This document shows positions 1,122-29,197 of a stretch of 64,000 nt of DNA, one piece after another. How positions within the stretch are numbered: position 1 is the first letter of the stretch; each line of letters starts with the position of its first letter. A model generated the notes under the pieces. The model had not been told where the DNA came from, made no database searches, and was given only the letters and a program-made list of their open reading frames with translations. The stretch comes from Dictyobacter arantiisoli (GTDB taxonomy: Bacteria; Chloroflexota; Ktedonobacteria; Ktedonobacterales; Ktedonobacteraceae): the NCBI RefSeq assembly GCF_008326305.1, contig NZ_BIXY01000009.1, positions 12,246-76,245 on the forward strand. Direction: 5' to 3'. Both the position numbers and the translations under genes were made by a program.

Positions 1122-1823
1122 ATGATACACCATCCTCATATCCAGCTTACTCACGAGCAGCAGGATTGTTTAGTAGCACGAGCACGAGCGGGAGAGAAGG
1201 CTGCAAAGGATGATATTATCCTCTCTCTTTTCCCACGCTTGCAAGCAATGGCTTCCAAATTCATCTTTACGCATTTCCACAACAAGCATAGCGTTGAATG
1301 CGGGGACCTCGCCAATCAAGCTAGCATTACGGTGATAGAAATCTTCGATGTCGCATTAACCAAAGAGGACCCCTATGCCTATCTGATGAAAGCGGCAAAG
1401 CGTACCATGATTGAATATTACCTGCATGGCGACGCCGATACGATTAGAACGTGCCATCAGTATCAAGACCCCATTCCCGTCCTTAGCTTAGATACCCAAT
1501 TAGAAGCAAGCGAAACGTTTTGTGCCGCATTGCAAACTGCTGAACTACGCCTGGAGGTTCCACCGACCCCAGAAGAAATCTATGCAGACCTCTACAAGGC
1601 TATTGAAACCCTTCCGGAAAAGCAGCGAGCAATCATTCGTCGATGCTACACCTTGGGTTTAGGTGATACACCCATCACGCTCAACGAAATGAGTCGTCTA
1701 CTTTCTCCGAAATCACCCCGGCCTGCCAATGCCCATTATTACAACAAAACGGCACTGTCCGCACTGCGTACGCTTTTAACTCCTGCCTCTGCTGCCTACT
1801 GTGTTGGAGGTGCCAAGTGCTAG
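1122..1823 (+). CDS. Sigma-70-like regulatory protein
   Basis: This 233-residue protein has the layout of a small sigma factor. A helical N-terminal half (residues about 8-110) includes a region 2-like stretch ending near DPYAYLMKAAKRTMIEYY. A C-terminal segment at about 160-215 begins ALETLPEKQR-like (IETLPEKQRAIIRRCYTLG), the usual entry to the region 4 helix-turn-helix. It is the first gene of an overlapping operon, so it may direct transcription of the element's own promoters. The ATG has AGGAG nine bases upstream. Region 2 is weak by eye, and a non-sigma DNA-binding protein remains possible. Its stop overlaps the next start. Confidence 0.6.
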   Translation: MIHHPHIQLTHEQQDCLVARARAGEKAAKDDIILSLFPRLQAMASKFIFTHFHNKHSVECGDLANQASITVIEIFDVALTKEDPYAYLMKAAKRTMIEYYLHGDADTIRTCHQYQDPIPVLSLDTQLEASETFCAALQTAELRLEVPPTPEEIYADLYKAIETLPEKQRAIIRRCYTLGLGDTPITLNEMSRLLSPKSPRPANAHYYNKTALSALRTLLTPASAAYCVGGAKC

Positions 1824-3514
1824 CGTCTTCTATTGCAGAGCATTCAACGATTCTGTTACGGCCGTATCAGGAAGCATGCATTGATCAAATCATGGCAGCA
1901 TATAAGCGCCAGCCTATTGGTGGCAAGACTTTAGTGGTTCTCGCAACGGGAGGCGGAAAGACGGTGGTGTTTGCTGAAGTGGCCCGACGTCTTGGCCTCA
2001 CCACGTTGATCATTGCCCATCGTCAAGAACTCCTTCAACAAGCTGCTGATAAGTTCCGAATGATTGATCCGACGGCTATTATTGGGCAGGTTGGAGCTGG
2101 ACGCCATGAGTATGGGGCACCGGTAACTGTAGCATCAGTTCAAACAATTAGTCGCCCTGAACACCTCAAGAACTTGAAACTGTTTGGGTACCAGCTGGTC
2201 GTTATTGACGAATGCCACCATAGTGCGGCAAATGGGTATCAAGCAGTTCTAGACGCGCTTCCGGATGCCTTCGTGCTTGGAGTGACTGCAACCCCGGACC
2301 GTCTGGACAAGCAGAATATTGAGAACATCTTTGGTGAGCCCGTTTTTACAGCTTCAATCATCGATATGGTTGAGCAGCACTACCTCTGCGATCTGCGTGC
2401 GATTGCAATCCCGACTACGACATCACTGGATAACGTCCATACGCAAGCTGGGGATTTTAAACTGGATGAATTAGAAGTTGCTGTTGATACAGATGACCGC
2501 AATAATCGTATTGTTGCAGCATATCTCCAGCACTGTGAAGGACGCCAAGCTCTTTGTTTTTCAGTGACTGTGGAGCATGCAATACATCTGGCGGATGCGT
2601 TCAATGCATCTGGCGTGCGTGCGGCCGTTGTGAGTGGTGATACTGCACCAGAGCAACGGAAACGTCTCCTCCATGATTATGAACGCGGTGAGATACAGAT
2701 ACTGTGCAATTGTGGCGTGCTTACCGAGGGGTATGATTCTCCACAAACCTCTTGTATTATCGTCGCACGTCCTACCAAGTCAAGAGCACTCTTTGTCCAA
2801 ATCGTTGGGCGCGGAACCCGCCTTGCCCCTGAAAAAAACGACTGTGTAATCCTGGATATCACGGACAATTGCCTCAAACATCGTATTCAACCTCTGACAT
2901 TAAGCAAGGCATTAGAGTTATCCCTTCTCGACGGCGAGAGTGTGATCGAGGCCAAGAAGCGCGAGATCACAGAAATGGAAGCAGAAGAACACGAAAAAGA
3001 GGAACGGACAACAAAGGTTTCACGGCGCACGCAGGATCTCCTTCTCAATATGTTGGACCGAATGCCTTGGAAACGTCAATCTAACGGCGCATATGTCCTA
3101 GAGGTGGGCGTACACCAGCATAAAATCTACCTGACCCCCTCGGAAGAGAAAGATGGTTACTATTCCGTGTGGGCAAAGCTTGCTCCAGACTTCCAGAAGC
3201 AGCAATGGCTGAAAGACTCCACGTTAGAGTGGGCTCAACAGCATGCAGAAATGAAAGCACGACTTCTTCAATCAAGCGAGAAAAAGTTGGTTCTTGTTGA
3301 TAATAATGCACCCTGGCGTAGTAACCCTGTCACTAAAGGCCAGATCTACATGCTACGTAAATACAACATTGCCTATACTCCAACCATTACATCGGGGGAA
3401 GCCTCTGATCTGATAGGCAGGGCAATAGAGGATGGCGCGAAAGCGAAAGCAGAGACGAAGGCAAAGAAGGCTCAGAAAGTCATTAAGAAGCTCATAAAGG
3501 GGGGCATACGATAA
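1817..3514 (+). CDS. Superfamily 2 DECH-box helicase
   Basis: This 565-residue ATPase is of the DEAD/DEAH 'type III restriction res subunit' type. A Q-like LRPYQ motif lies at 14-18, Walker A ATGGGKT at 43-49, the DECH box at 131-134 and TATPDR at 157-162. A C-terminal helicase lobe contains GRGTRLAPEK, motif VI, at about 330. The last 200 residues are charged and helical, ending in a Lys/Ala-rich tail, and have no recognised domain. The GTG start is preceded by GGAGGTG and overlaps the sigma-like gene by 7 bases. No nuclease or R-M specificity subunit is adjacent, so the likely role is DNA unwinding during element replication or repair. Exact substrate is unknown. Confidence 0.85.
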   Translation: MLASSIAEHSTILLRPYQEACIDQIMAAYKRQPIGGKTLVVLATGGGKTVVFAEVARRLGLTTLIIAHRQELLQQAADKFRMIDPTAIIGQVGAGRHEYGAPVTVASVQTISRPEHLKNLKLFGYQLVVIDECHHSAANGYQAVLDALPDAFVLGVTATPDRLDKQNIENIFGEPVFTASIIDMVEQHYLCDLRAIAIPTTTSLDNVHTQAGDFKLDELEVAVDTDDRNNRIVAAYLQHCEGRQALCFSVTVEHAIHLADAFNASGVRAAVVSGDTAPEQRKRLLHDYERGEIQILCNCGVLTEGYDSPQTSCIIVARPTKSRALFVQIVGRGTRLAPEKNDCVILDITDNCLKHRIQPLTLSKALELSLLDGESVIEAKKREITEMEAEEHEKEERTTKVSRRTQDLLLNMLDRMPWKRQSNGAYVLEVGVHQHKIYLTPSEEKDGYYSVWAKLAPDFQKQQWLKDSTLEWAQQHAEMKARLLQSSEKKLVLVDNNAPWRSNPVTKGQIYMLRKYNIAYTPTITSGEASDLIGRAIEDGAKAKAETKAKKAQKVIKKLIKGGIR

Positions 3515-3882
3515 TGGGACGACATTTGAAAGGAACGCCGAAACGCATGCCCCGTAAAGAGGCTCTTGATACCTTACGTCTGCTGCAAGAGAAATATATC
3601 GATCTCTTGTCGTATGGGCAATTTACGCAAGAGCACGAAAAGGAATTCCGTGCGCAACTGCGTGAAGCATTCGAATCGCTTACTGCAATGGTTTATGGTC
3701 CCCCTAGTTTGTGGCAATATTCCTTCCTTTGTAAAAAATGCCACAAGCGTTATGCAGAGATTGGGTGTACTGCAGAGTATGGGGATGACAGTAGTGGAAG
3801 TTACTACCACTCCTGCTGCAAGGTTTGTTACGACCAACTCAAAACAGAGGGCAAGCTTATCGAAGGTGAGGTGCAATTATGA
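3514..3882 (+). CDS. Hypothetical Cys-rich protein
   Basis: This 122-residue protein is of unknown function. The N-terminal half is helical and charged. The C-terminal half contains CKKCHKRY at about 72-79 and a second cluster, HSCCKVC, at about 100-106, which together look like a zinc-binding site. The TAATG overlap with the helicase and the ATGA overlap with the DUF488 gene show translational coupling at both ends. A zinc-stabilised partner of the neighbouring helicase or methyltransferase is a guess only. Confidence 0.6.
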   Translation: MGRHLKGTPKRMPRKEALDTLRLLQEKYIDLLSYGQFTQEHEKEFRAQLREAFESLTAMVYGPPSLWQYSFLCKKCHKRYAEIGCTAEYGDDSSGSYYHSCCKVCYDQLKTEGKLIEGEVQL

Positions 3883-4364
3883 CACCAGAACGTTTGGCAT
3901 CTCTTCAGGCCTTTCATATGCAGCAAGAATATCCAGTGAATTCGCTTCTGCCAGGCAGAGCACCCGAAGAAGGCGCGCTGACCACGATTGGCTATACAGA
4001 GCAGGATGCAGCATTGCACCTTGCACAGTACTTGGCTCAACCACGTACTGCTCTGATCGATATTCGCTACACGCCCTACTCTCGTTGGCGGCCGGAATGG
4101 AATAGCACCGCACTTCAAGCAGTATATGGACTGCGCTACACGCATATCAAGGCCTTAGGCAACGTCAACTATAAAACTCCTGGATCACCTATTCAGTTGC
4201 TTGATCCGGATCTCTCTGTGGCGAAGCTCGTGCAGTTGCTCCGACAAGGCATCAGTTTGAAGCTGCTCTGTGCCTGCAAAGATTATGAGCGTTGCCATCG
4301 GAAAGTTGTCTTTACCTTGGTCATGGAGGCCCTCGTTGCCTCACAGGGGGAGGTGCACGCATGA
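3879..4364 (+). CDS. DUF488 family protein
   Basis: This 161-residue protein shows the DUF488 hallmarks. The N-terminal strand TTIGYTEQD lies at about 38-46, LIDIRYTPYSRW in the middle and a C-terminal Cys/His site, CACKDYERCHRKVV, at about 131-144. The biochemical role of DUF488 proteins is not established. They are often found in mobile DNA beside DNA-modification genes, as here. The gene starts inside the previous stop (ATGA) and ends inside the start of the helicase-methyltransferase gene, so its product is probably made together with them. Confidence 0.8.
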   Translation: MTPERLASLQAFHMQQEYPVNSLLPGRAPEEGALTTIGYTEQDAALHLAQYLAQPRTALIDIRYTPYSRWRPEWNSTALQAVYGLRYTHIKALGNVNYKTPGSPIQLLDPDLSVAKLVQLLRQGISLKLLCACKDYERCHRKVVFTLVMEALVASQGEVHA

Positions 4365-6625
4365 GCACAAGAGAAACCTATCAGGCATTTTTACAGACGA
4401 AGCAAGTGCGTGTACGGCCCGCCGGGATCGAGATCTCGTGCGCCGAACTGCATCCCAGGCTTTTCCCATTCCAACAAGTAATCGTTCAGTGGGCACTTCA
4501 CCAGGGACAAGCCGCTATCTTTGCTGATTGTGGCCTGGGTAAGACTGGTATGCAACTCATCTGGGCACACGTGATTCACCAACGAACCAACCGTGATGTG
4601 CTCATACTGGCCCCCCTCACAGTCGCACGCCAAACCGTCAAGGAAGGTGGGGAATTTGGCCTATCGGTCCACATCTGTCGGTCACAGGCGGACGTGCAAC
4701 CCGGGATCAACATCACCAACTATGAGATGCTTGCGCACTTTGATCCTGCTCATTTTGTTGGTGTCGTGCTCGACGAGAGCAGTATTCTGAAATCGTACAT
4801 GGGCAAGACGAAACGAGCGTTGGTGGAGGCCTTTGCTGGCACGCCGTATCGTCTCTGCTGCACGGCAACCCCGGCACCCAATGATGTGATGGAGATTGGC
4901 AATCACAGCGAGTTCCTTGGCATTATGCCATCTAGCGAGATGCTCATGCGGTGGTTTATCAATGATACCATGCAGAATGGTCACTATCGCCTGAAAGGGC
5001 ACGCCTCGCACGACTTCTGGCAGTGGATCTCCTCCTGGGCTATCTCGCTACGCAAGCCCTCTGATCTGGGGTGCTCTGATGAAGGATTTACCTTGCCAGA
5101 GCTGCGGATCACGCATCACTACATTGATACCGACATCACTACCGGTATGGAGCAAGGACAACTCTTCCGCGCTCCAGTCCTCTCAGCGACGAACTTGCAT
5201 AAAGAGATGCGCCTCACTGCACCAGACAGAGCGCAGGCCGTTGCCGATTTGGTGAATGGAACTACAGAGACCTGGGCAATTTGGTGCAACACCAATTATG
5301 AAGCCGACGAGCTGGCGAAACGTATTCCGGATGCGGTAGAGGTACGCGGTTCGGATAGTCTCGACGCCAAAGAGCGGACACTCACCGCATTCACAATGGG
5401 TCACGCACGTGTGATCATCACCAAGCCAGGCATTGCTGGATATGGACTCAATTGGCAGCATTGCCATCATACCGCATTCGTTGGGCTATCCTACTCCTTT
5501 GAGGACTTCTATCAAGCGGTTCGGCGTTTCTATCGCTTCGGCCAAATGCATCCCGTCGAGGTGATCATCGTCGCAGCAGAGACCGAAGGCCCACTCGTGA
5601 GTGCCTTAGAGCGGAAGGTACAGGCGCATCTCCAAATGAGCGATGCCATGAACACCCAGACGGCTGCGCTGCCTGCACACGATGCGTTGGATCTTCAACG
5701 GCACGAGACATTCACTGTAGAGCAAGGAGAACAGTGGCAACTCTATCATGGTGATTGTGTGGCGGTCACCCAGCAGCTGCCAGCGGAAAGCGTGCATTTC
5801 AGCATCTTTAGCCCACCCTTTAGTAATCTTTACATCTATTCGGATGCCGTTGAGGACATGGGAAACTCGGCAGGTGATGAGGAGTTCTTCCGCCATTTCG
5901 ATTTCTTGATCCCTGAATTGCTCCGGATCACTCGACCGGGACGCCTGTGCGCAGTGCATTGTAAGGATCTGATCAACTACAAATCTCGCGATGGCGCAGC
6001 TGGCATTCGAGATTTCTCTGGAGAGCTCATTCGGCACTTCAGTACGGCCGGCTGGCAATATCACTCAAAAGTGACCATCTGGAAGGACCCGGTGATCGAG
6101 ATGCAGCGCACCAAAGCGCATGGCTTGCTCTATAAGCAATTGCGTGCGGATAGCACCTTTTCGCGGCAAGGCCTGGCGGAATATCTCTTGATTTTCCGCA
6201 AATGGGCACACACTGAAGAGGAAGAGGCACAGATCGAACCGGTTACTCACACCACAGAGGATTTTCCTCTAGAGATCTGGCAACGCTATGCGTCCCCCGT
6301 CTGGTTTGATATTCGGCAAACACATGTGCTCAACGTTGAGCAGGCACGGGAAAGCCCGGATGAGAAGCATATCTGCCCCTTGCAATTAGATGTGATTGAG
6401 CGCGCGCTTCAGCTCTGGAGCAATCCTGGTGAGACGATCTTCTCTCCCTTCACCGGCATTGGTTCCGAAGGCTATGAGGCACTGCGCTTAGGACGGCACT
6501 TCATTGGGGTTGAACTCAAGGAAAGCTACGTGAAAGCTGCACGGAAGAACCTAGAGCGGATACTTCAGAAGAAAACGCAAAGGACGTTGTTCGATGAGTT
6601 TGCAGAGAGTGAGGTGCTCGCATGA
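4361..6625 (+). CDS. SNF2-like helicase fused to an N4/N6 DNA methyltransferase
   Basis: This 754-residue fusion has a helicase half at residues about 25-430. It shows Walker A GLGKT near 58-62, a DESS box near 137, CTATPAPND near 167 and a C-terminal lobe with NWQHC and QAVRRFYRFGQ, typical of SNF2/ERCC-like proteins. The second half (about 465-754) is a beta-class amino-methyltransferase. Catalytic motif IV is SPPFSNLY (about 484) and lies before the SAM-binding motif FTGIGSEG (about 697) and FIGVELKESY. The enzyme should methylate adenine-N6 or cytosine-N4. The ATG at 4361 overlaps the DUF488 stop; an in-frame upstream ATG at 4292 would overlap that gene and is not preferred. Confidence 0.85.
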   Translation: MSTRETYQAFLQTKQVRVRPAGIEISCAELHPRLFPFQQVIVQWALHQGQAAIFADCGLGKTGMQLIWAHVIHQRTNRDVLILAPLTVARQTVKEGGEFGLSVHICRSQADVQPGINITNYEMLAHFDPAHFVGVVLDESSILKSYMGKTKRALVEAFAGTPYRLCCTATPAPNDVMEIGNHSEFLGIMPSSEMLMRWFINDTMQNGHYRLKGHASHDFWQWISSWAISLRKPSDLGCSDEGFTLPELRITHHYIDTDITTGMEQGQLFRAPVLSATNLHKEMRLTAPDRAQAVADLVNGTTETWAIWCNTNYEADELAKRIPDAVEVRGSDSLDAKERTLTAFTMGHARVIITKPGIAGYGLNWQHCHHTAFVGLSYSFEDFYQAVRRFYRFGQMHPVEVIIVAAETEGPLVSALERKVQAHLQMSDAMNTQTAALPAHDALDLQRHETFTVEQGEQWQLYHGDCVAVTQQLPAESVHFSIFSPPFSNLYIYSDAVEDMGNSAGDEEFFRHFDFLIPELLRITRPGRLCAVHCKDLINYKSRDGAAGIRDFSGELIRHFSTAGWQYHSKVTIWKDPVIEMQRTKAHGLLYKQLRADSTFSRQGLAEYLLIFRKWAHTEEEEAQIEPVTHTTEDFPLEIWQRYASPVWFDIRQTHVLNVEQARESPDEKHICPLQLDVIERALQLWSNPGETIFSPFTGIGSEGYEALRLGRHFIGVELKESYVKAARKNLERILQKKTQRTLFDEFAESEVLA

Positions 6626-8028
6626 CGCTTGATATTACGGTCACTGATATGTTTTGTGGAGCCGGTGGGAGTACCACCGGTGCCATTCAGGCAGGAGCAC
6701 GGGTCAATCTCGCGATTAATCATTGGGCACGGGCTATTGAGACCCACAACACGAATTATCCTGAGGTCACACATGCCTTGACTGACTTGCACATGGCGAA
6801 TCCACGCCGCTTCCCTGGATCGACCATCCTAGAGGGGAGTCCTGAATGTACCGAGCATACCCTCGCCAAAGGGCGAAAACGCACGGGGCAAGGCCAATTA
6901 GAACTGTGGGACACAGGCGCTTCAGATCTGGCAACAGCGGCAGAGGAACGCAGTCGCTGTACTATGTGGACACCATTGGATTGGGCGGAGTGCCACAACT
7001 ACCAAGCCGTTATTCTCGAAAATGTGGTGGATGTCCATCTTTGGAGACCTTTTCAAGCATGGTTACAGGCGTGGCGTAGCCTCGACTACGATTTCGAGGT
7101 GGTGTACCTCAATTCAATGCACGCCCATCCAACGCCTCAGAGTCGAGATCGGATGTACTTTGTAGCCTGGAAACGTGGTAACCGACGCCCGAACCTCAAA
7201 ATCACACCAGCTGCTCATTGTGGCCCATGTGCCAAAGATGTTGCATCCATTCAATGCTGGAAAAATCCAACACGCCGCTATGGCAAATACAAACAGCAAT
7301 ATGTCTATTGTTGCCCACGCTGTGCACAGGAGGTAATACCATACTACTATGCGGCCGCGACGGCAATTGATTGGTCTGTGCCTGCACCGCGCATTGGTGC
7401 TCGAAAAAAACCATTGAAGGAGAAGACACAGAACCGCATCAAGTATGGATTGGAAAAGTTTACGAGAGAGAACCATCCTTTTTTGCTTCAGACCTCTCAT
7501 GGTGTCTGTGGGCATGCAAGTTATGTGACATCGGCCTCTGAGGTCCCCTTTCCTACTCAAACCACGCGACAGGATATGGCCTTGTGTGTGCCTTCACCTT
7601 TTATTCTTGATCATCTGGGGGAATATCGCCCACGAAGTATCACCAGGCCCCTTTCCACTGTGTGTGCAGCTGGAAACCATCACAGCATCATCCTCCCCCC
7701 GCAGGCACAGGCGTACTTGATGACCTACTACAATCATGGACAGCTCCTTCCTGTGCATGAAGCCGCGCCAACGGTGACAACGCTTGAACGGCATGCCCTC
7801 GTTACGACGGAGAATGCGGCCCCAGATATAGAGGATTGTGGCTTTCGGATGCTGATACCCAAAGAGATTCAAGCAGCAATGGCCTTCCCTGAAAACTATG
7901 TTGTGACGGGAACCCATCGTGAGCAGGTCAAGCAACTGGGAAATGCGGTAACACCGCCGGTCATGAAGTTATTAATGGAGCGTGTGCTTGCCTCACTGGC
8001 AGGCGGTGTATCGGGAGGATTACAATGA
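6622..8028 (+). CDS. DNA cytosine-C5 methyltransferase
   Basis: This 468-residue enzyme has the C5-methyltransferase order. Motif I FCGAGGS lies at about 10-16 and motif IV EGSPECTEHT holds the catalytic Cys at about 76. Motif VI ENV follows at about 133, then motif VIII PQSRDRMYFVA and a C-terminal motif X QLGNAVTPPV. Motif IV reads SPEC where most family members have PPC. Between about 199 and 236 sits a four-Cys cluster (CGPC, CCPRC) that looks like a zinc ribbon inside the target-recognition part. No cognate endonuclease is visible. It may act as an orphan enzyme protecting the element from host restriction. ATGA overlaps with both neighbours place it in the operon. Confidence 0.88.
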   Translation: MTLDITVTDMFCGAGGSTTGAIQAGARVNLAINHWARAIETHNTNYPEVTHALTDLHMANPRRFPGSTILEGSPECTEHTLAKGRKRTGQGQLELWDTGASDLATAAEERSRCTMWTPLDWAECHNYQAVILENVVDVHLWRPFQAWLQAWRSLDYDFEVVYLNSMHAHPTPQSRDRMYFVAWKRGNRRPNLKITPAAHCGPCAKDVASIQCWKNPTRRYGKYKQQYVYCCPRCAQEVIPYYYAAATAIDWSVPAPRIGARKKPLKEKTQNRIKYGLEKFTRENHPFLLQTSHGVCGHASYVTSASEVPFPTQTTRQDMALCVPSPFILDHLGEYRPRSITRPLSTVCAAGNHHSIILPPQAQAYLMTYYNHGQLLPVHEAAPTVTTLERHALVTTENAAPDIEDCGFRMLIPKEIQAAMAFPENYVVTGTHREQVKQLGNAVTPPVMKLLMERVLASLAGGVSGGLQ

Positions 8029-10844
8029 CCACTCTAGCATCACCAAACATTTGGACAGAGCCGGTCCCAGTTCAAATTGCGCTTGAAGCGAGTCAACGGC
8101 TTCATTGGTCTATCATCCCTCTCGACGAGGAAAAGCGACCACCCAAAGTCGGGGGATTCCATCAAGATGGTACACCGAAACGGTTGTCTTGGAAGCGATT
8201 CCAGAGTCGATGTGCCTCTCCGCAAGAGATTCTGAATTGGCAAAAAATTTACACGCCTTTTGCTTGGGCTGTTGTCACCGGTGCAATAAGTGGGGTTCTC
8301 CTTCTTGATTTTGATCGGAAGGAGGGCAAAGAGACGTGCCAGCAGCTTGGATTGAATCCGCATGTTCATACCGGGTCCGGTGGCTACCATGTCTACTTCA
8401 AACATCCCGGTTGGCATGTTCCCACCCTCAATAGCATCTCGAAAAAAGAGTTGGGGGACCGCTGGCCCGGTCTAGATATCCGCGCTGATGGGGGCTATGG
8501 CGCATTCTGTGGCGGGAATACCAATGGACCGTATATCTGGGTACGCGAACCGATACTGGAAACGGTAGATATTCTTCCGCATAACCTTCGTACCTTCCTA
8601 GGACTCCTTGCAGCTCCGGAGATGAGGCCACAAGATGAGCCTGTTTCCCCATCGGAACCCCATGGGAATCTCGAAAGGATACTGCTGGAGCGTGCCCTGT
8701 CTGCAATTGCAGCCGGGACCGGTCGCAATGATGCTGGCTTTTGGTTGGCCTGCCAACTGCGAGATAATGCGTTCCCCCTGGAATCCGCGAAGGTGGTTCT
8801 TCAAGACTATGTCCAACGGGTTCCATCGACCAATAGCAAAGGGCATCATGAACCCTATACTCTGGAGGAGGCGCACGCCAGCGTGCGTAGTGCCTTCGCA
8901 GAAAGGGCACGCAGCCCCTGGGAACCATCTGCACCACGAACACAACCTGCCCCCAATGACGGTGGCAGGGGTGGCGCAGACACAGGGACACACGTCGGTG
9001 TAGCTACTCCTGCGCCCCAAGACTTGCCCGATATTATCATTGGTGGTGATCAACTCCGTGATGTGACGAATCAAGCCATTGCAGCCATTTTGCGACAAGA
9101 GCGAAAAAACCCCACGCTCTTCTTACAATCAGCGCGCCTCGTCCGCATCACTTGGAATGAGACGAAGCGTCCCTGGATTGCCCAGATGGGTATCAATGAA
9201 ATCAAAGAAGCACTCACACATTCCGCAAACTACTACCGACTCAAAAAGGTTCCTGGTGCGGAACAGGACTATATCAAAATCGCGGTCTCGCCACCAAAGG
9301 AGGTGGCAGAGCAGATCCTCGCACGACAGACGCAAAAGCCCTATTTGCCGTTCCCCCCGCTCGTTGGGATCGTCGAAACACCGGTCCTGCGTCCGGATGG
9401 CACGATTGTGGATCAGCCTGGCTATGACAAGAAAACCCGACTCTACTATGCTCCACAGGAAGGAATGGAGGCATGCGCGATTCCATCCACACCAACGCTG
9501 GCAGAGCGCGAGGCGGCATTGAAACTGATCTGGGACGCCATTGGTGAATTCTCGTATGTGGGCGATGCTGATAAAGCCAACGCGCTCGGTCTCTATCTGA
9601 CACCCTTGATTCGGCCGGCGGTGAAACGCCACGTTCCGCTCGCGATTATTGACGCTCCCAAGCCGGGCTCTGGCAAAGGCCTGCTCAGCGATGGCGTTTC
9701 GACAATTGCCACGGGAAATAGCGCAGTAATTCTTACGATGTCAGACAGCGCGGAAGAGATGCAAAAAGCAATCACATCACTTCTCATTGAAGGCACGACT
9801 ATTATCACGATTGATAATATTGCTGGTCGTCTCCAATCAAGCCATCTTGAAGCAGTGCTCACCGCCGATATGTGGCGAGGGCGCATTCTAGGACAATCCA
9901 AAATGACAAACGTCCCCCAACGCGCGACGTGGTTGGCAACCGGGAATAATATCAAAATTGGCGGTGATCTAGCACGCCGTTGTTATCGTATCCGCTTGGA
10001 CCCCAAAGTTTCTCGACCATGGATGCGAGTGGGGTTTACACATAGCGATCTCATCACTTGGATTGCAGAGCGCCGCCCGGCTTTGATTTCCGCCCTGCTC
10101 ACGTTGGCGCGTGCCTGGTTTGTGGCAGGGAGCCCCCAGTATGATCATATCCCCGCATTGGGCACCTTTACCGGATGGAGCAAAACCGTGGGCGGGATCT
10201 TAGAGTATGCCGGGGTAACCGGATTCCTTTCTAATCTGGACACCCTCTATGGTGAAGCCGACGAAGACAATGCGCAATGGGAAGGCTTTTTCCAATCGTG
10301 GCTCGAAACCATTGGCGAGGAGTGGGTCACGAGCGCCAATCTTTTCCAGTATATTACCGTTGCGAGGGGTGGTAATGACATTGCAGGGGATGGTGATGAA
10401 AAATGCGACTCTGACCTGGCAGAATCGTTGCCTGCGAACCTCCAAATTGCCCTCAAAGACAAGCCCAATAGCTTCAAAGTACGCCTCGGAAAGGCGCTTG
10501 ATAGGCGGGTTGATGAATGTTTCGGTTCGGAAAATATTCATCTAGAAAAGATGCGCGAGAAACACCGCAATTTGAGTCTGTGGAGAGTTTTGCGAGGGGT
10601 TGCGGAGGTTGTACCAGTCACGTGTGAGAAAAAAAATCTCCTTGAGGAAAATGCGTATACAGACGACAGCTACAACCTCCGCAACCCCTCGCAAATGCCC
10701 ACTCTCAGCGAGGCGAAAAATACGCGAGTTGGCTTTCCAAGCGGGCTTGACCCATCTTCAATGTCACAAGAAAGGGTACAAACGCCCCAAATTGAGGGTC
10801 AACCCCTCGCAAGTGCAACCGAATGGGAGGATATTGAGCTATGA
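8025..10844 (+). CDS. Bifunctional primase-polymerase with C-terminal helicase domain
   Basis: This 939-residue replication protein has a Prim-Pol (archaeo-eukaryotic primase type) N-terminus at residues 1-200. It shows a catalytic DFD near 96 and GGYHVYF near 118. A middle linker is rich in Pro and charged residues (about 295-335). A C-terminal P-loop ATPase follows, with Walker A PGSGKG near 545, Walker B IITIDN near 594 and an arginine-bearing GDLARRCYRIRL segment. Proteins of this type replicate plasmids and integrative elements by priming and unwinding at an iteron origin. The last 150 codons carry iteron-like repeats. Its C-terminal half is homologous to the protein at 24817-26169. ATGA overlaps occur at both ends. 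Confidence 0.85.
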   Translation: MTTLASPNIWTEPVPVQIALEASQRLHWSIIPLDEEKRPPKVGGFHQDGTPKRLSWKRFQSRCASPQEILNWQKIYTPFAWAVVTGAISGVLLLDFDRKEGKETCQQLGLNPHVHTGSGGYHVYFKHPGWHVPTLNSISKKELGDRWPGLDIRADGGYGAFCGGNTNGPYIWVREPILETVDILPHNLRTFLGLLAAPEMRPQDEPVSPSEPHGNLERILLERALSAIAAGTGRNDAGFWLACQLRDNAFPLESAKVVLQDYVQRVPSTNSKGHHEPYTLEEAHASVRSAFAERARSPWEPSAPRTQPAPNDGGRGGADTGTHVGVATPAPQDLPDIIIGGDQLRDVTNQAIAAILRQERKNPTLFLQSARLVRITWNETKRPWIAQMGINEIKEALTHSANYYRLKKVPGAEQDYIKIAVSPPKEVAEQILARQTQKPYLPFPPLVGIVETPVLRPDGTIVDQPGYDKKTRLYYAPQEGMEACAIPSTPTLAEREAALKLIWDAIGEFSYVGDADKANALGLYLTPLIRPAVKRHVPLAIIDAPKPGSGKGLLSDGVSTIATGNSAVILTMSDSAEEMQKAITSLLIEGTTIITIDNIAGRLQSSHLEAVLTADMWRGRILGQSKMTNVPQRATWLATGNNIKIGGDLARRCYRIRLDPKVSRPWMRVGFTHSDLITWIAERRPALISALLTLARAWFVAGSPQYDHIPALGTFTGWSKTVGGILEYAGVTGFLSNLDTLYGEADEDNAQWEGFFQSWLETIGEEWVTSANLFQYITVARGGNDIAGDGDEKCDSDLAESLPANLQIALKDKPNSFKVRLGKALDRRVDECFGSENIHLEKMREKHRNLSLWRVLRGVAEVVPVTCEKKNLLEENAYTDDSYNLRNPSQMPTLSEAKNTRVGFPSGLDPSSMSQERVQTPQIEGQPLASATEWEDIEL
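10359..10812. repeat. Iteron-like repeats in the 3' end of the Prim-Pol gene
   Basis: The core TTGCGAGGGGT occurs at 10360-10370 and 10590-10600 on the plus strand, and inverted at 10681-10692 and 10801-10812. The two middle copies extend to a perfect 25-bp inverted repeat (10589-10613 with 10671-10695). Four copies in 450 bp, in both orientations, next to a replication initiator-like gene fit an origin of replication or an autoregulatory operator. The region encodes a low-complexity, polar tail, so coding constraint there is probably weak. Confidence 0.6.
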
Positions 10845-13042
10845 AAGATATCACAACGTTGGACTTTCTTGCGGAGCTACGACAGAGACGCATCGAGGTG
10901 ACGAGCAGTGAGGGGAAACTGCACATTCATGCCCCAAAGGGCGTTTGTACTCCCGAACTGAAGACACAACTCCAGGAACGGAAAGCCGAGCTGCTCATGA
11001 CATTGGCGCAAGAAGCAAAAGCATCCCTTGCATCCGCGCCAGATACCTGCGCTACCTGTCAGACACCAATCGACGCCGAAGATCGAGATTTTTGTTATAC
11101 TCCGTCGGGTGCATGCTACTGCATACCCTGTTGGGAACGTCAGCTAGATCAGCCACTCACGTCAAGCCAATCCCTTGCGCTGCTTAAACAGTGCTTCCAT
11201 GATCACACAGAGCTTGCGATAGACCTGGAAACTACGGGGTTGAATGCACGTACCTGCAAGGTCGTTAGTATCACAGTTGGGACTCCGGAGAAGACCGTGA
11301 TCATCGACACGCGTCCGTACTATCACTGGTCGGAAATGGAACAATGGACCTATCGGAACGCGCTTCAGCAATTCTTTCATCAGTCCCAGATTTGTTGGAT
11401 CGGGCACAACCTGAAATTTGACTGGCAGTTCCTGGCAGTCCATTTCGGCATCGGCTTGCGCAGTGTCTACGATACGATGCTTGCAGAGCAGCTGCTCGAA
11501 CATCGGGAGATATCTCTCAAAGCGACGGTGGCGCACTACCAGCTAGGAGAGATGCACAAGGAAGAGCGCTCCTGGTTCATCGATCTGGACCGCCGGCCGG
11601 GAGATTGGAGTGCCGCCTTCCCTGCAGGCCAATGCACCTATATGCGGCAAGATGTTGTGCAAGCCTACCACGTGTTTCGAAAACAGCGCGCGTCTATCGA
11701 GGCAGGGCAACTTACACAGGTTGTCGCGTTAGAGAATAGCGCGCTCCCTGCATTGGCAGCAATGGAAGTTCATGGGGCGCTCATCGATGTTGCGCGATGG
11801 AAAAAGGTGCTTCAAGCCAAGCGTGAACGACAGGCAGAGTTAGAGCCTGTGCTGCAAGAGGGACTTATACAGCCTCTGCGAGACGCTCGCGCAGCAACAT
11901 ATCAAGAGTATCAGCAAGCTGTTCGCAACATCTGGAGTTCTCCTTCCAAGGTTCGACCAAGTTGCCCAGTTGATCCTTGGAAACCCATCAACCTTTCATC
12001 TGCGGATGACCTGAAAGAAGCGCTCGCGGTAGCAGGTATCCACGTGGAAAGTACCCGTGAGGAAGCGCTAGAGGTGCACAAAGCCCATGCATCGATCATC
12101 AAACCGTTGCTGGAATGGCGCAAACTGCAACATTTTTGCGATGCATTTGGGGAAAATCTTCTAGCACATATCCAGATAGATGGACGCATTCACGCCGATT
12201 TTCGCCAGATTGGGGCAGTGTCCGGCCGGATAATCTGCAACAAACCCAACTTACAACAGATTCCCAAGAAAGCAGAAGAGGAAAGCGATGATGTGGATCT
12301 CCGCCAATGCTTTGTGGCAGCGCCAGGTAACGTGTTACTCACGGCGGATCTCAGTAACATAGAGTTGCGTATCTTAGCTGATTTTGCACGGGACAAGGCA
12401 ATGCTTCGTTTCTTTGCGGAAGGGAAAGACTTGCACGCGGAGACAGCCAAGCTAATGTTTGGGTTACCAGAGGAGACCAATACCAAGAAACACCTGTACA
12501 AAGGCGTAGCGGTACGCAGTATTGCGAAAACGATCAACTTTGGCCTCGCGTATGGCATGGGGGCATCTGGGCTTGCAGGGCGAACGGGAGTGAGTCTCGA
12601 CGAGGCACGTTCTCTAATGCGCAAGTACTTCGACACCTATGCAGGAGTTGCACGGTTCCTCAAACAATCGGCGGCGAGCGCATTGCGGAAGGGCTATGCG
12701 ACAACAGCATCAGGGCGAAAAAGGTCATTTCCAACGGCATCGATTCAAAGCCAGAGCGAGCGTGGACGCATTGAACGCTCAGCCAAGAACCACCCGATCC
12801 AGGGTACCAATGCGGATGTACTCAAACGTGCTCTCGCATTGCTGTATACCACACTTCCAGAGGTTGTGCATATTACGCTGACAGTGCACGATGAGATTGT
12901 ATTGGAGTGTCCAAGTGATCTCGTCGAAGAGGCAACACGCATCTTACAAGGTGCAATGGTGCAGGCTTGCCGAGACTATCTCCCAGTCGTTCATATTCCG
13001 GAGCCAGATGTATTGATAGATACATGTTGGAGAAAAGAGTAA
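10841..13042 (+). CDS. Family A DNA polymerase with TubC-like N-terminus and 3'-5' exonuclease
   Basis: This 733-residue polymerase begins with a segment of about 50 residues (LAELRQRRIEV, GKLHIHAPKG, LQERKAELL) resembling a TubC_N docking domain. A Cys cluster at about 70-96, probably a zinc finger, follows. The exonuclease domain has DLETTG near 127, GHNLKFDW near 189 and a YMRQD third motif near 267. The polymerase domain has motif A TADLSNIELR near 500, motif B RSIAKTINFGLAYG near 559 and motif C HDEIV near 683. All catalytic acids are present, so an active proofreading replicase is expected. It closes the overlapping operon, and no 5'-3' exonuclease domain is present. Confidence 0.9.
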   Translation: MKDITTLDFLAELRQRRIEVTSSEGKLHIHAPKGVCTPELKTQLQERKAELLMTLAQEAKASLASAPDTCATCQTPIDAEDRDFCYTPSGACYCIPCWERQLDQPLTSSQSLALLKQCFHDHTELAIDLETTGLNARTCKVVSITVGTPEKTVIIDTRPYYHWSEMEQWTYRNALQQFFHQSQICWIGHNLKFDWQFLAVHFGIGLRSVYDTMLAEQLLEHREISLKATVAHYQLGEMHKEERSWFIDLDRRPGDWSAAFPAGQCTYMRQDVVQAYHVFRKQRASIEAGQLTQVVALENSALPALAAMEVHGALIDVARWKKVLQAKRERQAELEPVLQEGLIQPLRDARAATYQEYQQAVRNIWSSPSKVRPSCPVDPWKPINLSSADDLKEALAVAGIHVESTREEALEVHKAHASIIKPLLEWRKLQHFCDAFGENLLAHIQIDGRIHADFRQIGAVSGRIICNKPNLQQIPKKAEEESDDVDLRQCFVAAPGNVLLTADLSNIELRILADFARDKAMLRFFAEGKDLHAETAKLMFGLPEETNTKKHLYKGVAVRSIAKTINFGLAYGMGASGLAGRTGVSLDEARSLMRKYFDTYAGVARFLKQSAASALRKGYATTASGRKRSFPTASIQSQSERGRIERSAKNHPIQGTNADVLKRALALLYTTLPEVVHITLTVHDEIVLECPSDLVEEATRILQGAMVQACRDYLPVVHIPEPDVLIDTCWRKE

Positions 13043-13703: not shown

Positions 13704-14897
13704 ATGGGATTATTTGATAAAGTCAACCCATTTAAGGGGCGGCAATCTGGAAATAAACAGCAAGTCCAGACTGCAAGCCCGCCTCAGACAAACCAGCCAA
13801 CTACGAGTCAACAGTCCCAGGCAAGTCAACAATCGGCGGCAGCTGGTAACTTAAATAGAGTCCAGGCTGGCAATGTATCGCTGGTAACACACACACCTGA
13901 ACAAGCGCTCCAGCAAGTTGAAGATGAAAGTGCAGATATTCTTTTCGGAGAGTCTCGTCAGCATAAAATCATGGCTACGCTCAATCAGAACTGGGCTTTA
14001 ATTGGTCCTCTTCTGTTTGCGGTCGCGACGGTCATGGAGATATTCCTTGTCTTATGGTCATTTATGCGAGACCATAATGTCTTTTACGCAGCGACGTTGC
14101 TGGCTGTATCGATTATTGCAGAGATGACACTTGTAACGGTCTCTTTCGCCGCTCACATGATCCGCTCACGAGCGGCGAAGCGCAACGGAGGTATGACCCG
14201 TGAGGAGAAGATAAAGCTTGCTACGATCAAGAACGTCTGGTACTTGCTTTCTATCTTCATTGCAACGACGCAAGTGTTCTTTATTGTCACTCAATCCGAT
14301 ACGACGAAAGCATCGATAACCGTGCTTGTGACTATAGCGATAGTGCGAGCAGCAGTATCAATGGTTGCTGATTATTATACCGCCTATATTGCTGATGAAA
14401 GACCGGACGACTCCGAGAGGGCACTAGAGATTAAAGAACAAAAGACTCAGTTTGCAGAGAAGCTTCTGCAAGGGGAGGGAAGAAAAATAACCGTCATCAA
14501 CGCGGAGTCTATCAACGTTCAAGAGCGCGCACAAGCCGCTACGATCAATCAGAAACGAACGGAACAAAAAGCGGCTATGGAAATGGATGTACTACGTACT
14601 GAGCAAGAGTTAGCTCGTCTTGAAAATCAAAACAGGATAGCAAAGGCAAAAGCTCAGTACGAGGGAGAGGCTGAATGGTCGAGGCTACAAGTCGCTTTTA
14701 TGCGCCAGCAACAAGCACAATTAGCGGAGGCGGCAAAAAGCCTCGTTGGCGAGTCTGAGAAGGATAAGGAGGTCAAATCAACACTCCACTACATCTTGAG
14801 CGAAGTTAAATCCCTTAAAGATCGTCCAAACGAGAGTCCAGACACTAGCCCTCTTCGCGTGATTAACGGTCCTATGAGACAAGAGGATGATGTCTAA
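13704..14897 (+). CDS. Membrane protein with long coiled-coil tail
   Basis: This 397-residue protein has three parts. A Gln/Ser/Thr-rich disordered N-terminus spans about 1-75. Four predicted membrane helices follow: WALIGPLLFAVATVMEIFLV near 95-118, a second near 123-150, and two more near 170-225. The charged coiled-coil C-terminus runs from about 235 to 380, rich in Gln/Glu/Ala. AGGAG lies 11 bases before the ATG. Its stop overlaps the start of the next gene (TAATG), so the two proteins are made together. No named family was recognised. A membrane-anchored scaffold of the element, for partition, transfer or host interaction, is conceivable but not shown. Confidence 0.7.
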   Translation: MGLFDKVNPFKGRQSGNKQQVQTASPPQTNQPTTSQQSQASQQSAAAGNLNRVQAGNVSLVTHTPEQALQQVEDESADILFGESRQHKIMATLNQNWALIGPLLFAVATVMEIFLVLWSFMRDHNVFYAATLLAVSIIAEMTLVTVSFAAHMIRSRAAKRNGGMTREEKIKLATIKNVWYLLSIFIATTQVFFIVTQSDTTKASITVLVTIAIVRAAVSMVADYYTAYIADERPDDSERALEIKEQKTQFAEKLLQGEGRKITVINAESINVQERAQAATINQKRTEQKAAMEMDVLRTEQELARLENQNRIAKAKAQYEGEAEWSRLQVAFMRQQQAQLAEAAKSLVGESEKDKEVKSTLHYILSEVKSLKDRPNESPDTSPLRVINGPMRQEDDV

Positions 14898-15622
14898 TGA
14901 CAGAGCGCCCATTTAGTCGATATACACGAGAAAAATCATGGGCAGCACTCTATAGCCAGCACATCAATGCTGGCTATGTGCTTATCCCGCATAGCAGGAC
15001 GAACAATAGCATTGCAGTGATACGTCGCGAGCCAGCCGAAAAAGTACAGGAGATTACCCGTAAGTTGTACGAGCATGCTGATCAATGCGATGCTTTTTTT
15101 AATCAGAGTGATGCGGATGAACCCAACGATCCGGAGGTGGCGGACCTGCTCAAGCGATCGAAGCATGCCGTAGTGCTAGCGCGTTCTTCTGACTACTACC
15201 ACTACCATCTCGACGACAAAGAGGATATGGGAGTTTTCGGTTTAGTGATATGTGGCATCCATGATAGTTATCTCCAGCTACCCGTCTGGGAGCTGAGAAA
15301 CAATAAGCGCTATGCTGCTCGCGAGACAAGCATAGACATCTCCTCTCCTGTTTTTGAGCATGCACGTAAGACGCAAGTAGGGCATTCTATCTTACTTGGA
15401 GCACTCCACAACGGGGATAAGATAGCCAAGGCATTTTTAGAGGCTCTAAAGAAGCGCCAAGAGCGCACATACTGGCGTATCCGTGCTGAAGTGGATGCAA
15501 TGCAAGAGGCTCAATATCGAGGTCGTCACCTGGCATTCATGACCGAGCTTGAGCGCAAAGAAGTGGGAGCCAAAATCAGTCAGGGATTGAAACTCTATTA
15601 TGCAAAACGTCGATCATCATAA
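14897..15622 (+). CDS. Hypothetical protein coupled to the membrane scaffold gene
   Basis: This 241-residue soluble protein has no recognised domain. It contains a His/Tyr/Asp-rich stretch (SSDYYHYHLDD) near 104-114 and a helical, basic C-terminus (AKISQGLKLYYAKRR). The ATG overlaps the stop of the membrane gene, which argues for a shared function. A small ORF follows 12 bases later. No signal peptide or membrane helix is visible. Confidence 0.65.
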   Translation: MTERPFSRYTREKSWAALYSQHINAGYVLIPHSRTNNSIAVIRREPAEKVQEITRKLYEHADQCDAFFNQSDADEPNDPEVADLLKRSKHAVVLARSSDYYHYHLDDKEDMGVFGLVICGIHDSYLQLPVWELRNNKRYAARETSIDISSPVFEHARKTQVGHSILLGALHNGDKIAKAFLEALKKRQERTYWRIRAEVDAMQEAQYRGRHLAFMTELERKEVGAKISQGLKLYYAKRRSS

Positions 15623-17126: not shown

Positions 17127-17933
17127 ATGGATCTAAACAAAGCTGTAGCAGAAGTGGATAGTATGCTTGATCGAGAGATCTCATATCGAGGTGCGGGTGG
17201 AGTAGAAGAGTTACTGGCATCGTTGAAAGCGCGTGCTCGACTAGATACATGTATTGGAAGCATTGAGGAGACTACCTATAGCCTACGTCGCAAGCAGCGT
17301 CGCCTCTCAGACCTTCCACCACTAGATGTCGTACGCTGGGCACAAACGGTGCTTTGCATGCCCAATCTCGTTTTCTTAGAGCTGGATACAACGGGACTTT
17401 ATCAAGAAGCAAAGATCATCCGAGTGACCGTATTGGACGGCGTCGGCGCATGTCTTCTCGATCTCTTTGCAAGGACCTCTAACCCCATTCCTCAAAATAT
17501 TGAGCGTATCACAGGGATTACGAATCAAGATCTCCAGTCGAAAGGCCAAGATATCATCTCTGTGCTAGGGCAGCTGCAAGAGGTACTCACAGGGAAATAT
17601 GTCTTGTCATACAATCTCGATTTTGATACTGAGAAACTTCAAGAGGCAGCAGCTCGCCTCGAAATTGAGCCAACCCACTTTATTGGGGAAGACTTGATGC
17701 TACAGGCTACGCGCTACTTCGTTACGCAGCGGTATCCACGGTTAGAAACTGTCTGCCAGCAAATTGGAAAGCCATTGCCTGCACAGCCCGGCCAGATATC
17801 GATTGACCGAGCGAAAGGGCAGATTGCACTCATACATGCCATCGCGAATGCGGTCACAACGGCGCAACCGGCAACAACTCCCCCGGTGGATATTGACAAT
17901 AATGATGACGACTTAGATGAGCATCCGTTTTAG
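17127..17933 (+). CDS. DnaQ-like exonuclease-fold protein, catalytic residues altered
   Basis: This 268-residue protein starts at an ATG preceded by AAAGGAG. Residues about 80-245 follow the DEDD exonuclease plan. There is an exo I-like LELDTTGL near 84-91, where family members read D-x-E, and an intact-looking exo II YNLDFDTEKL near 162-171. The exo III region near 230-240 reads DRAKGQ instead of the usual HxxxxD pattern. Key acids and the His are therefore changed, so activity is doubtful. It may be a structural or regulatory relative, such as a polymerase clamp or proofreading decoy. The C-terminal tail is acidic (NNDDDLDEHPF). Confidence 0.65.
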   Translation: MDLNKAVAEVDSMLDREISYRGAGGVEELLASLKARARLDTCIGSIEETTYSLRRKQRRLSDLPPLDVVRWAQTVLCMPNLVFLELDTTGLYQEAKIIRVTVLDGVGACLLDLFARTSNPIPQNIERITGITNQDLQSKGQDIISVLGQLQEVLTGKYVLSYNLDFDTEKLQEAAARLEIEPTHFIGEDLMLQATRYFVTQRYPRLETVCQQIGKPLPAQPGQISIDRAKGQIALIHAIANAVTTAQPATTPPVDIDNNDDDLDEHPF

Positions 17934-17938
17934 CCTCT

Positions 17939-18314: not shown

Positions 18315-18335
18315 AACAGGATAGGGGTTACGCAT

Positions 18336-22049: not shown

Positions 22050-22154
22050 TCGGTCGATCCAAGAGACTGGTTATATGTTGGTTTTGGATCGGCGCAGATT
22101 TAAACGACGATCATGAATGAGTTCAATAGAATCAGCAGTAGACAAGGAGTTGTA

Positions 22155-22665: not shown

Positions 22666-23012
22666 ATAACACCGTCAGCCCTTGTAGCCTTTGCAGAGAG
22701 CTTTCTGTACTTTATGTGCACGTAGAGGGTAGTAGTGAAGGGCTATACACGCTCCTGAAGTGTTCGCAATGATCCATTGTATGCATCACCTTTAGTGAAG
22801 TGTGCTCGTGAGGAGGACATGCATTGAAAGCGCAGTTCGAATTCAAAATCGTAGATTTGTGGGTTGGGGCCTTTTTGAAACGCTCTGACAATATTCTGCA
22901 TATCTGGGTGTGCTTCATTCCTTGCATACCTCTGCATGTGCAAATTATGTCTAGATCTATCAAAGGCAATGAATAATCTTCCAGTACTGAGTTGAAAAGA
23001 GAGGATACAGCC
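22666..23012. promoter_or_regulatory. Non-coding region before the excisionase gene
   Basis: This 347-bp stretch has no convincing gene; the open minus-strand frames lack ribosome sites. It holds the third TTTATGTGC element at 22711-22741, just after a small hairpin. This is the likely control region of the excision/integration genes. GAGAGG upstream of 23013 is the excisionase ribosome site. Confidence 0.4.
22711..22741 (+). promoter_or_regulatory. Conserved TTTATGTGC element, copy 3
   Basis: TTTATGTGCACGTAGAGGG followed by TAGTAGTGAAGG matches the copy at 17046 at about 24 of 31 positions. It lies about 300 bases before the excisionase start. Confidence 0.4.
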
Positions 23013-23258
23013 ATGACGACACGAGAAAAGAAACGAAATCCGTCCAAATTACAAGAGGCAATTACACTCTCACCTTCCGATCTTCAATTATTATCAATCA
23101 CACAGACAATGAAGCTCCTCAACCTCGGCCGCACAAAGGTATATGACCTCATCAATCGCGAGGCACTGCCTACGGCAAAGATCGGGGGCTCAACGCGGAT
23201 ACCCCTTGCGGAACTAAAGACATGGATTGAGCAGCGTAAAACGACAAAAAGAGAGTAA
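23013..23258 (+). CDS. xis: Excisionase-like helix-turn-helix protein (element A)
   Basis: This 81-residue DNA-binding protein is of the MerR-like excisionase type. Residues about 28-75 contain SITQTMKLLNLGRTKVYDLINREALPTAKIGGSTRIP in outline, the winged helix of this family, ending in the wing and a helix LKTWIEQ. The ATG is chosen for its GAGAGG site. It lies upstream of the integrase gene and is separated from it by a hairpin. The protein at 27577 is a close homologue. Expected role: control of the direction of integrase action. Confidence 0.8.
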   Translation: MTTREKKRNPSKLQEAITLSPSDLQLLSITQTMKLLNLGRTKVYDLINREALPTAKIGGSTRIPLAELKTWIEQRKTTKRE

Positions 23259-23277
23259 GAGCGGTTGCACTTTACTG

Positions 23278-23504: not shown

Positions 23505-24680
23505 ATGCCACGGCAAAGAAAAAAGGGGATCAAGGGCAATGGCTCCGTCTTCCAGCGTAAAGATGGGCGATGGGTTGCACAATTTCTCGTCGAAGGAACC
23601 GGGAAGACGAAACAACTCTATGCAGCCACAGAGAAAGAGGCCAACGAGAAGCTACAGAAGGCCCTACAAGAGCAGAGGCAAGGCATTCTCGCCACTGGTC
23701 CAAAGCAAAAACTAGGAGATCATCTCAACTATTGGCTCGAAGAGGTCAAACGTCAGAAGCTACGAGAATCCACCTATCAAAGTTACCGAATCATGATAGA
23801 CACGCATATTAATCCCAAACTAGGGAATATCCCTCTGCACAAATTGACCACGCAAACCATCCAAGCTTTCTATAACAACAAGGCAAAAGAGCATCAGAAT
23901 AAGACAAAAGAGCATCCATCTTCCGGGTCGGTTCACATAATGCATACAGTATTACATCAAGCATTAAAATATGCCACCCAAGTCCGCCTAATTGCCTATA
24001 ATCCAAGCGACAACATTGTGCTTCCGAAACGCACGAAGCGGAAGGTGAAACCGTTCACACTTGAGCAGTCAAGACACTTAATCCAGGCGGCTCAAGGAAG
24101 CCACTTAGAAATGTTGATCACATTGGCACTCTTCACAGGTATGAGACATGGTGAGCTTGTGACTTTACGCTGGGAGGATATCAATTTTGAAAATGCCAGT
24201 ATCTATGTTCATCGTACCGGCAGGTATTGGGGAAAGGGCAGGTTTATCGAAGGGGACCCAAAGACTGAGGCAGGAGAGCGTATTATCCCCATTTCGCACA
24301 AACTTTGCGATGAACTCAAGCGGTATCAATCCCGTCAAAAAGAGATGCGATTAAAAGCCAGAGGGGAATGGAATGACATAGGTCTAGTGTGTTGCAATAC
24401 CCGAAACGGAGGGTTTCTTAATCACGCGAATGCCCGAAAATCGTTTTACCTTCTACTCGAAAAAGCCAATCTCCCACGTATCCATATCCATGACCTACGA
24501 CATACTGCCTCAACGCTGATGCGGAGTATGGGTATAGATCTCAAAGTGATACAGGAAATACTAGGGCATAGCAATATGGATATGACTGCTAACGTGTATT
24601 CACATGTCCTTCCTGAGATGCAAACACAAGCCGCCGAAAAGATGAATCGACTCCTGAAAGAGCCACTTTCAGGAGATTAA
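23505..24680 (+). CDS. int: Tyrosine-type integrase (element A)
   Basis: This 391-residue site-specific recombinase has a basic AP2-like arm-binding N-terminus at about 1-60 (GNGSVFQRKDGRWVAQF). A SAM-like core-binding domain spans about 70-170 and the catalytic domain 180-390. The active-site set is complete: R in TGMRHGEL (about 214), HDLRH (about 328-332), GHSNMDM (about 353) and the nucleophile Y in ANVYSHV (about 364). AAGGAGA lies upstream. It is a diverged homologue of the integrase at 27836. The gene end probably lies near the attachment site. Confidence 0.92.
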   Translation: MPRQRKKGIKGNGSVFQRKDGRWVAQFLVEGTGKTKQLYAATEKEANEKLQKALQEQRQGILATGPKQKLGDHLNYWLEEVKRQKLRESTYQSYRIMIDTHINPKLGNIPLHKLTTQTIQAFYNNKAKEHQNKTKEHPSSGSVHIMHTVLHQALKYATQVRLIAYNPSDNIVLPKRTKRKVKPFTLEQSRHLIQAAQGSHLEMLITLALFTGMRHGELVTLRWEDINFENASIYVHRTGRYWGKGRFIEGDPKTEAGERIIPISHKLCDELKRYQSRQKEMRLKARGEWNDIGLVCCNTRNGGFLNHANARKSFYLLLEKANLPRIHIHDLRHTASTLMRSMGIDLKVIQEILGHSNMDMTANVYSHVLPEMQTQAAEKMNRLLKEPLSGD

Positions 24681-24681
24681 A

Positions 24682-24756
24682 CTGTCAAACTAACTGTCAT
24701 TTAGAGGCTTTAGAGGCGTAGATATGGGCTAAAGCCTCTCTATAAGAGGGTTGTGA
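24682..24756. other. Candidate attachment region after integrase A
   Basis: Two direct repeats, CTGTCAA at 24682-24688 and CTGTCAT at 24694-24700, are spaced 12 bases apart. The same arrangement follows the second integrase. An 11-bp inverted repeat, AGAGGCTTTAG (24703-24713) and CTAAAGCCTCT (24729-24739), lies just beyond; it may terminate int or be part of att. Coding similarity to element B helicase begins shortly after, so the element junction is here. Confidence 0.5.
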
Positions 24757-24816
24757 TCTAGACAAAATAGGAGTTACGCTGTACTTTATACACTCACGGA
24801 AACCACCTTAAAGGGC

Positions 24817-27825: not shown

Positions 27826-27835
27826 TGAAAGTGAG

Positions 27836-29008: not shown

Positions 29009-29016
29009 CCCTTATG

Positions 29017-29035
29017 CTGTCAATCATGCTGTCAA
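29017..29035. other. Candidate attachment repeats after integrase B
   Basis: CTGTCAA occurs at 29017-29023 and again at 29029-29035, spaced 12 bases, just after the integrase stop. The same spacing and sequence follow integrase A. They are probably integrase or excisionase binding sites at the right end of element B. Confidence 0.5.
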
Positions 29036-29123
29036 TGGTGGTTGCGTCCAATAGAGAATGGTGGTTAAATGTGGGTGTGTACTGCCTTTATCATGCGAGG
29101 TAAAATGTACTTAAGAAACAAAC

Positions 29124-29197
29124 CTAGTATACCATATCTGCTTCGTGGCAATAGTGGCGTCACTACAGACAAGAAGGGGGTAGTAATGGTATACTAG
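29124..29197. promoter_or_regulatory. Inverted repeat upstream of the CPBP gene
   Basis: CTAGTATACCAT at 29124-29135 and its exact complement ATGGTATACTAG at 29186-29197 are separated by 50 bases. The pair lies just before the ribosome site of the CPBP gene and could be a two-site operator. It may also lie at the edge of element B. Confidence 0.45.

Follow-up and report, generated by a model that had tools for sequence, protein, structure and literature searches.

An eight-gene operon of Dictyobacter arantiisoli as a probable replication module with DNA-modification cargo from a Ktedonobacteria integrative element

Eight overlapping genes in the soil bacterium Dictyobacter arantiisoli bring together a sigma-like factor, helicases, DNA methyltransferases, a Prim-Pol and a DNA polymerase, which raises the question of whether they form one fixed system or belong to a larger mobile element. 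The window, that is, the whole stretch of 64,000 nucleotides that was analysed, corresponds to positions 12246-76245 of the contig (C9); coordinates preceded by C9 follow the contig numbering, and all others that of the window (Table 1). Sequence comparisons indicate that the operon is probably a replication module with built-in DNA-modification cargo, from a family of Ktedonobacteria integrative elements.

Gene content and junctions of the operon

According to the ORF list of the window, eight same-strand ORFs occupy positions 1122-13042 (+) and overlap at all seven of their junctions, which confirms the initial annotation. Its wording "fully overlapping" holds for the number of junctions and not for their extent, as the overlaps are limited to 1-7 nt at the gene ends (7 nt at the single GTG-type junction, with one TAATG and five ATGA junctions). 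Such overlaps suggest co-transcription and perhaps translational coupling. The further proposal, that the products are made in fixed proportion, is unsupported, since every gene of the operon has its own Shine-Dalgarno sequence (4-6 of 6 matches to GGAGGT), and since the core junctions of three relatives (G031, G033 and G034) lie 12 to 178 nt apart; overlapping junctions recur in Dictyobacter aurantiacus and are absent from these three. Predicted promoters were no more numerous than in shuffled sequence, terminator counts fell within one s.d. of the shuffles, and an Rfam search of positions 1-30000 returned no match.

Table 1. Features of the operon and of the surrounding insert (window numbering unless preceded by C9)
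Feature	Position	Strand	Basis or remark
Sigma-70-like factor, 233 aa	1122..1823	+	subthreshold HMMs, D. aurantiacus orthologue, fold matches
Superfamily II (ResIII/RadD-like) helicase, core gene	1817..3514	+	PF04851 E 1e-29; phrog_16 E 3e-98
122-aa protein with CxxC pairs	3514..3882	+	no family match
DUF488 protein, cargo	3879..4364	+	PF04343 E 2e-11; other positions in G036, G030, G031
SNF2 helicase fused to N4/N6 DNA methyltransferase, phage type	4361..6625	+	SNF2-rel, Helicase_C, N6_N4_Mtase (Pfam)
C5 cytosine DNA methyltransferase	6622..8028	+	PF00145 E 4e-22
Prim-Pol with C-terminal helicase-type ATPase, core gene	8025..10844	+	PF09250 E 2e-18; phrog_29234/10537/19930; motifs
Family A DNA polymerase (PolA), 3'-5' exonuclease and N-terminal TubC_N, core gene	10841..13042	+	Pfam, motifs
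Junction 1	1817		AAGTGCTAG, 7 nt overlap, GTG start
Junction 2	3514		ATAATG, 1 nt overlap
Junctions 3-7	3879, 4361, 6622, 8025, 10841		ATGA
Downstream conserved pair: membrane/coiled-coil protein (397 aa) and 241-aa protein	13704..15622	+	kept in relatives
DEDDh-type exonuclease, DNA polymerase exonuclease subunit-like	17127..17933	+	phrog_192 E 4e-12; RNase_T weak
Small HTH/excisionase-like protein, ahead of integrase	22992..23258	+	sequence read by eye only
Tyrosine integrase 1	23505..24680	+	PF00589 E 1e-28
Direct repeat AACTGTCAAACTAACTGTCA, putative integrase arm site of element 1	24680..24699	+	
Second-element helicase, N-terminal residues missing	24790..26169	+	family homology from ~24790
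Second-element primase (AEP-TOTE and CHC2 zinc finger)	26486..27424	+	PF22548 E 3e-25
Tyrosine integrase 2	27836..29008	+	PF00589 E 2e-30
TGCTGTCAATCATGCTGTCA, putative integrase 2 arm site	29015..29034	+	partner just inside left end, C9:8219
Right attachment repeat ACCTAGTATACCATA	29122..29136	+	exact 15-bp copy at C9:8088, outside window; empty-site alignment

The labels of two DNA methyltransferases, a Prim-Pol and a proofreading polymerase agree with the Pfam domains and with the catalytic motifs: those for exonuclease, polymerase, primase, Walker A/B and both methyltransferases are all intact across the five large enzymes; the C5 methyltransferase carries its catalytic cysteine in SPEC, instead of the usual PPC. 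Both of the helicases first annotated were found, the gene at 1817..3514 matching ResIII/Helicase_C in Pfam. Their number is probably three motors and not two, because the Walker A/B motifs of a helicase-type ATPase are also present in the Prim-Pol protein. The Prim-Pol sequence had no match among solved structures, and the 122-aa protein had none in Pfam, PHROG or further HMM family searches. The TubC_N domain recurs on the PolA orthologues of G023, G033 and G036.

The sigma-like factor is the weakest call of the set. Its own matches to Pfam sigma region 4 and to TIGR02937 (sigma70-ECF, E 5e-7) are below cut-off, but the D. aurantiacus orthologue, 53% identical, scores above the Sigma70_r2 cut-off, and the Foldseek matches of the predicted model are sigma factors (best E 7e-4), the model being of low confidence (pLDDT 53) with an N-terminal helical part that reaches pLDDT 90. 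Despite the subthreshold scores, the orthologue's match and the predicted fold thus support a sigma-like product. Moreover, G036 has a complete sigma factor (regions 1.2, 2, 3 and 4) after its cluster-7 gene, where other relatives have the sigma-like gene.

Core and cargo among relatives

Gene order in relatives had been set beforehand as the check that could overturn the eight-gene combination as a fixed system, and the combination is not conserved: only helicase, Prim-Pol and PolA are kept. These three retain order and strand in G023, G031, G033, G034 and G036, with a decayed copy in G032, and the helicase is kept upstream of Prim-Pol in six relatives; a sigma-type gene often lies upstream of this core in Ktedonobacteria relatives. 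Several copies are damaged, as the polymerase of G031 is split in two ORFs, and stop codons break the Prim-Pol match in G034 and both the PolA and Prim-Pol matches in G032. Across 400 genomes sampled from the phylum, only members of this Ktedonobacteria element family give a Prim-Pol alignment that starts in the N-terminal domain, and the matches outside the family cover the C-terminal part.

What surrounds the core changes from one relative to another, the set comprising C5 methylase, SNF2-methylase, Dam, D12, PAPS-reductase-like and DUF488 genes. In this genome the 122-aa protein, DUF488, SNF2-methylase and C5 methylase separate helicase and Prim-Pol; in their place G023 has a PAPS-reductase-like gene and G036 a Dam methylase, and G031, G033 and G034 have no intervening gene at all. 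DUF488 and C5 methylase are both found upstream of the helicase in G036 and downstream of PolA in G030, and singly at far downstream positions in G033 (C5 methylase) and G031 (DUF488). The fused SNF2-methylase has a homologue in G030, which alone holds SNF2-methylase, C5 methylase, DUF488, Prim-Pol and PolA together, spread over two contigs. As relatives of C5 methylase and DUF488 also occur near helicases of a second type in G024 and G023, the cargo seems to move between kinds of element.

Two further variants were observed. At G039:C29:6352-9987, the TubC_N form is replaced by a 1211-aa family A polymerase whose fused N-terminal half is primase-like and matches Toprim weakly. In addition, a 332-aa protein of the G036 element and a 361-aa protein of the G030 element are related to each other and have no match in Pfam or PHROG; by eye they look TGT/DpdA-like, a resemblance that would point to 7-deazaguanine modification of DNA.

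The surrounding insert

The operon sits in a composite insert of ~33 kb, from C9:8088 to window position 29122, bounded by a 15-bp direct repeat that was found by aligning the empty sites of relatives. Four relatives (G023, G025, G026 and G043) have such an empty site: in them, genes for an M16 peptidase, TPR, roadblock and ndk closely adjoin the genes that start here at window position 29223, and in this genome ~34 kb part the two groups. Together with the downstream excisionase-like and integrase genes, the insert, its repeat and the four empty sites lend good support to the earlier proposal of a replicon module of an integrative element. Paired CTGTCA motifs lie just inside both insert ends, and a related element in G026 has the same pair after its integrase. 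Since the sequence after the left repeat (C9:8088) resembles the native right flank, a copy of the target may be part of the element. The attachment region (29122-29200 and C9:8088-8166) forms an imperfect inverted repeat, TAGTATACCATA ... TAATGGTATAAT; ~64 bp separate its arms, and it lies near the start of the right-flank gene.

The left end was joined by scaffolding, given the 99-N gap immediately before the window. Around this gap there is a 471-bp tandem unit (window 2-942 and C9:12024-12245), made of the 5' end of a creatininase-like gene with the region upstream of it, and present as two exact copies and a third cut by the gap; this repeat may have caused the break in the assembly.

Element 1, from the sigma-like gene to integrase 1, joins the helicase gene of a second element at ~24790, within coding sequence. 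Positions 24790-29008 form a remnant of that second element (helicase, separate AEP-TOTE primase and integrase), with longer relatives in G026, G023, G024 and G034. A nested insertion of element 1 into this helicase gene was considered and rejected, as the missing N-terminal piece is not left of the operon; a genome search for the piece, which had no positive control, found nothing. The cluster-7 gene (270-276 aa), found to the left of the sigma region in G023, G033, G034 and G036, also had no match in this copy. Given the fusion at ~24790 and these two absences, the copy is a mosaic and may be defective. At the ends of element 1 itself, a search for an attachment site found no direct repeat of at least 11 nt shared by 470-1130 and 22000-30100, local alignments gave short matches only, and the element ends in G036 and G031 yielded no convincing direct repeats.

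Within element 1, perfect 31-bp inverted repeats at 17938-18315 surround 316 bp with a 73-aa ORF, as a single copy in the genome, and a site close to the helicase gene in the G024 element is similar to one of the arms (82% over 44 nt); the segment is possibly invertible or origin-like. The predicted structure of the 241-aa protein was of too low confidence to use.

Proposed role and relation to known systems

As the replication module of an integrative element, the operon would come into play once Xis/Int had excised the element. The sigma-like factor could then steer host RNA polymerase to the element genes, the helicase and the Prim-Pol/helicase would open and prime the circular DNA, the proofreading PolA would copy it, and the methyltransferases and other modification genes could mark the element DNA against host restriction. 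Homologues of the core genes occur in phages and plasmids, and a replication origin was not identified. There are documented cases of plasmids shielded from restriction by methylases that they encode (PMC11602122), and the swappable modification slot probably serves anti-restriction; no restriction partner for the methyltransferases was recognised here. An epigenetic role is possible, anti-restriction being the simpler reading. That the set could work with little host help is an overstatement, because the sigma-like factor needs host RNA polymerase and neither a single-strand binding protein, a ligase, a clamp nor a topoisomerase was recognised.

The proteins might also form a lineage-specific replisome, with the PolA TubC_N domain docking onto the acidic C-terminal tail of Prim-Pol and with enzymes of the same operon marking new copies during synthesis, a speculation that we consider doubtful. 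Acidic tails are present in this genome (G000, ...LASATEWEDIEL), in G023 (...LASTEEWEEFDL) and in G030 (...SASDDESEEFTL), and are absent or different in G031, G033, G034 and G036. Moreover, the conservation of the tail may have another cause, because its codons here also contain the PolA Shine-Dalgarno sequence. Should it work in this way, the docking-type domain would give a mobile-element PolA a simple means of recruitment.

Could the element instead be conjugative, moving double-stranded DNA through an FtsK-type translocator in the manner of AICEs? We regard this as a minority possibility. The AICE survey describes Prim-Pol elements, among them Fdat2245 with a Prim-Pol and a DNA_pol_A protein, and a C5 methylase, as in our operon, on some Frankia elements (PMC3218068). 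A tyrosine integrase beside an excisionase-like gene and Prim-Pol-based replication are common to AICEs and to this element, which has two PF00589 integrase genes and a PF09250 replication protein. Among relatives, an FtsK_SpoIIIE ATPase that scores above cut-off is encoded in G030, with a membrane protein gene next after it, and G036 has a weakly matching HerA-like ATPase. However, AICEs have an FtsK/SpoIIIE-type Tra protein, whereas no capsid, relaxase or FtsK gene (PF01580) was found among the scanned window ORFs of this copy, and no element ends were delimited in G030. AICEs are also reported as confined to Actinomycetales (PMC3218068), to which this host, of the same genus as D. aurantiacus and thus of a different phylum, does not belong. 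Compared with AICEs, the element adds the sigma-like factor, a helicase, TubC_N on PolA and the modification gene set.

We think it somewhat less likely still that the operon represents a prophage early region, the prophage being decayed or satellite-like and its structural genes lost or supplied by a helper phage. Phage homologues of the helicase, PolA and SNF2-methylase do number hundreds to thousands, and the SNF2-methylase is a common phage protein, matched by 304 phage records over at least 80% of its length. The archaeal virus Caudoviricetes sp. vir525 (BK063673) has, close together and in the same order, an SNF2-methylase homologue (49% identical over 99% of the query) and a Prim-Pol-like one, the latter matching only Prim-Pol residues 335-856; it is a virus with a terminase, and no family A polymerase is annotated in the genome parts examined. 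Synechococcus phage S-CBS3 has the same two-domain SNF2 helicase-methylase (gp40, 48% identity over 98%) and encodes a sigma factor in that part of its genome, with no Prim-Pol or PolA annotated beside gp40 in the region examined. Nevertheless, no terminase, portal or capsid match was obtained by Pfam or PHROGs among the scanned window ORFs, relatives gave just one weak terminase-like PHROG match (to the FtsK/HerA-like ATPase of G030), and phage and viral-contig collections were without a close relative of the Prim-Pol. A 213-aa protein had weak tail/endolysin-like matches (E 4e-4).

It is improbable that SNF2-methylase, C5 methylase and DUF488 make up an anti-phage system, of restriction-modification or DISARM-like type, carried by the element: PADLOC matched MTase_II, DrmMII and, for DUF488, phage-defence-candidate families, but among the best 25 matches per operon protein only the methylase-type DrmMII pointed to DISARM, with neither DrmA, DrmB nor a recognised restriction nuclease domain, the helicase matches were generic, and the three genes separate and move independently in relatives.

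The replication module of an integrative element therefore remains our preferred reading, and defines a testable element family in Ktedonobacteria. A replication core that exchanges modification genes moreover lends itself to the question of whether mobile elements match their modification enzymes to host restriction. No description of this lineage was found in the literature searched, and no named system is known to have the exact combination, as first noted, although its parts have precedents in AICEs, AEP elements and phage SNF2-methylases. Cryptic integrated mobile elements that encode archaeo-eukaryotic primases are documented as class iii (PMC5862659), and share with this one direct repeats, an integrase, an AEP primase and no recognised conjugation or phage structural genes (here by Pfam and PHROGs, over scanned ORFs of mostly at least ~119 aa). 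That survey covers the PrimPol-PV1 supergroup; the likeness drawn here is one of element features, and the present element has an extra family A polymerase and methylases. Most parts are thus known from phages and other mobile elements, and their combination is a new variation on these precedents.
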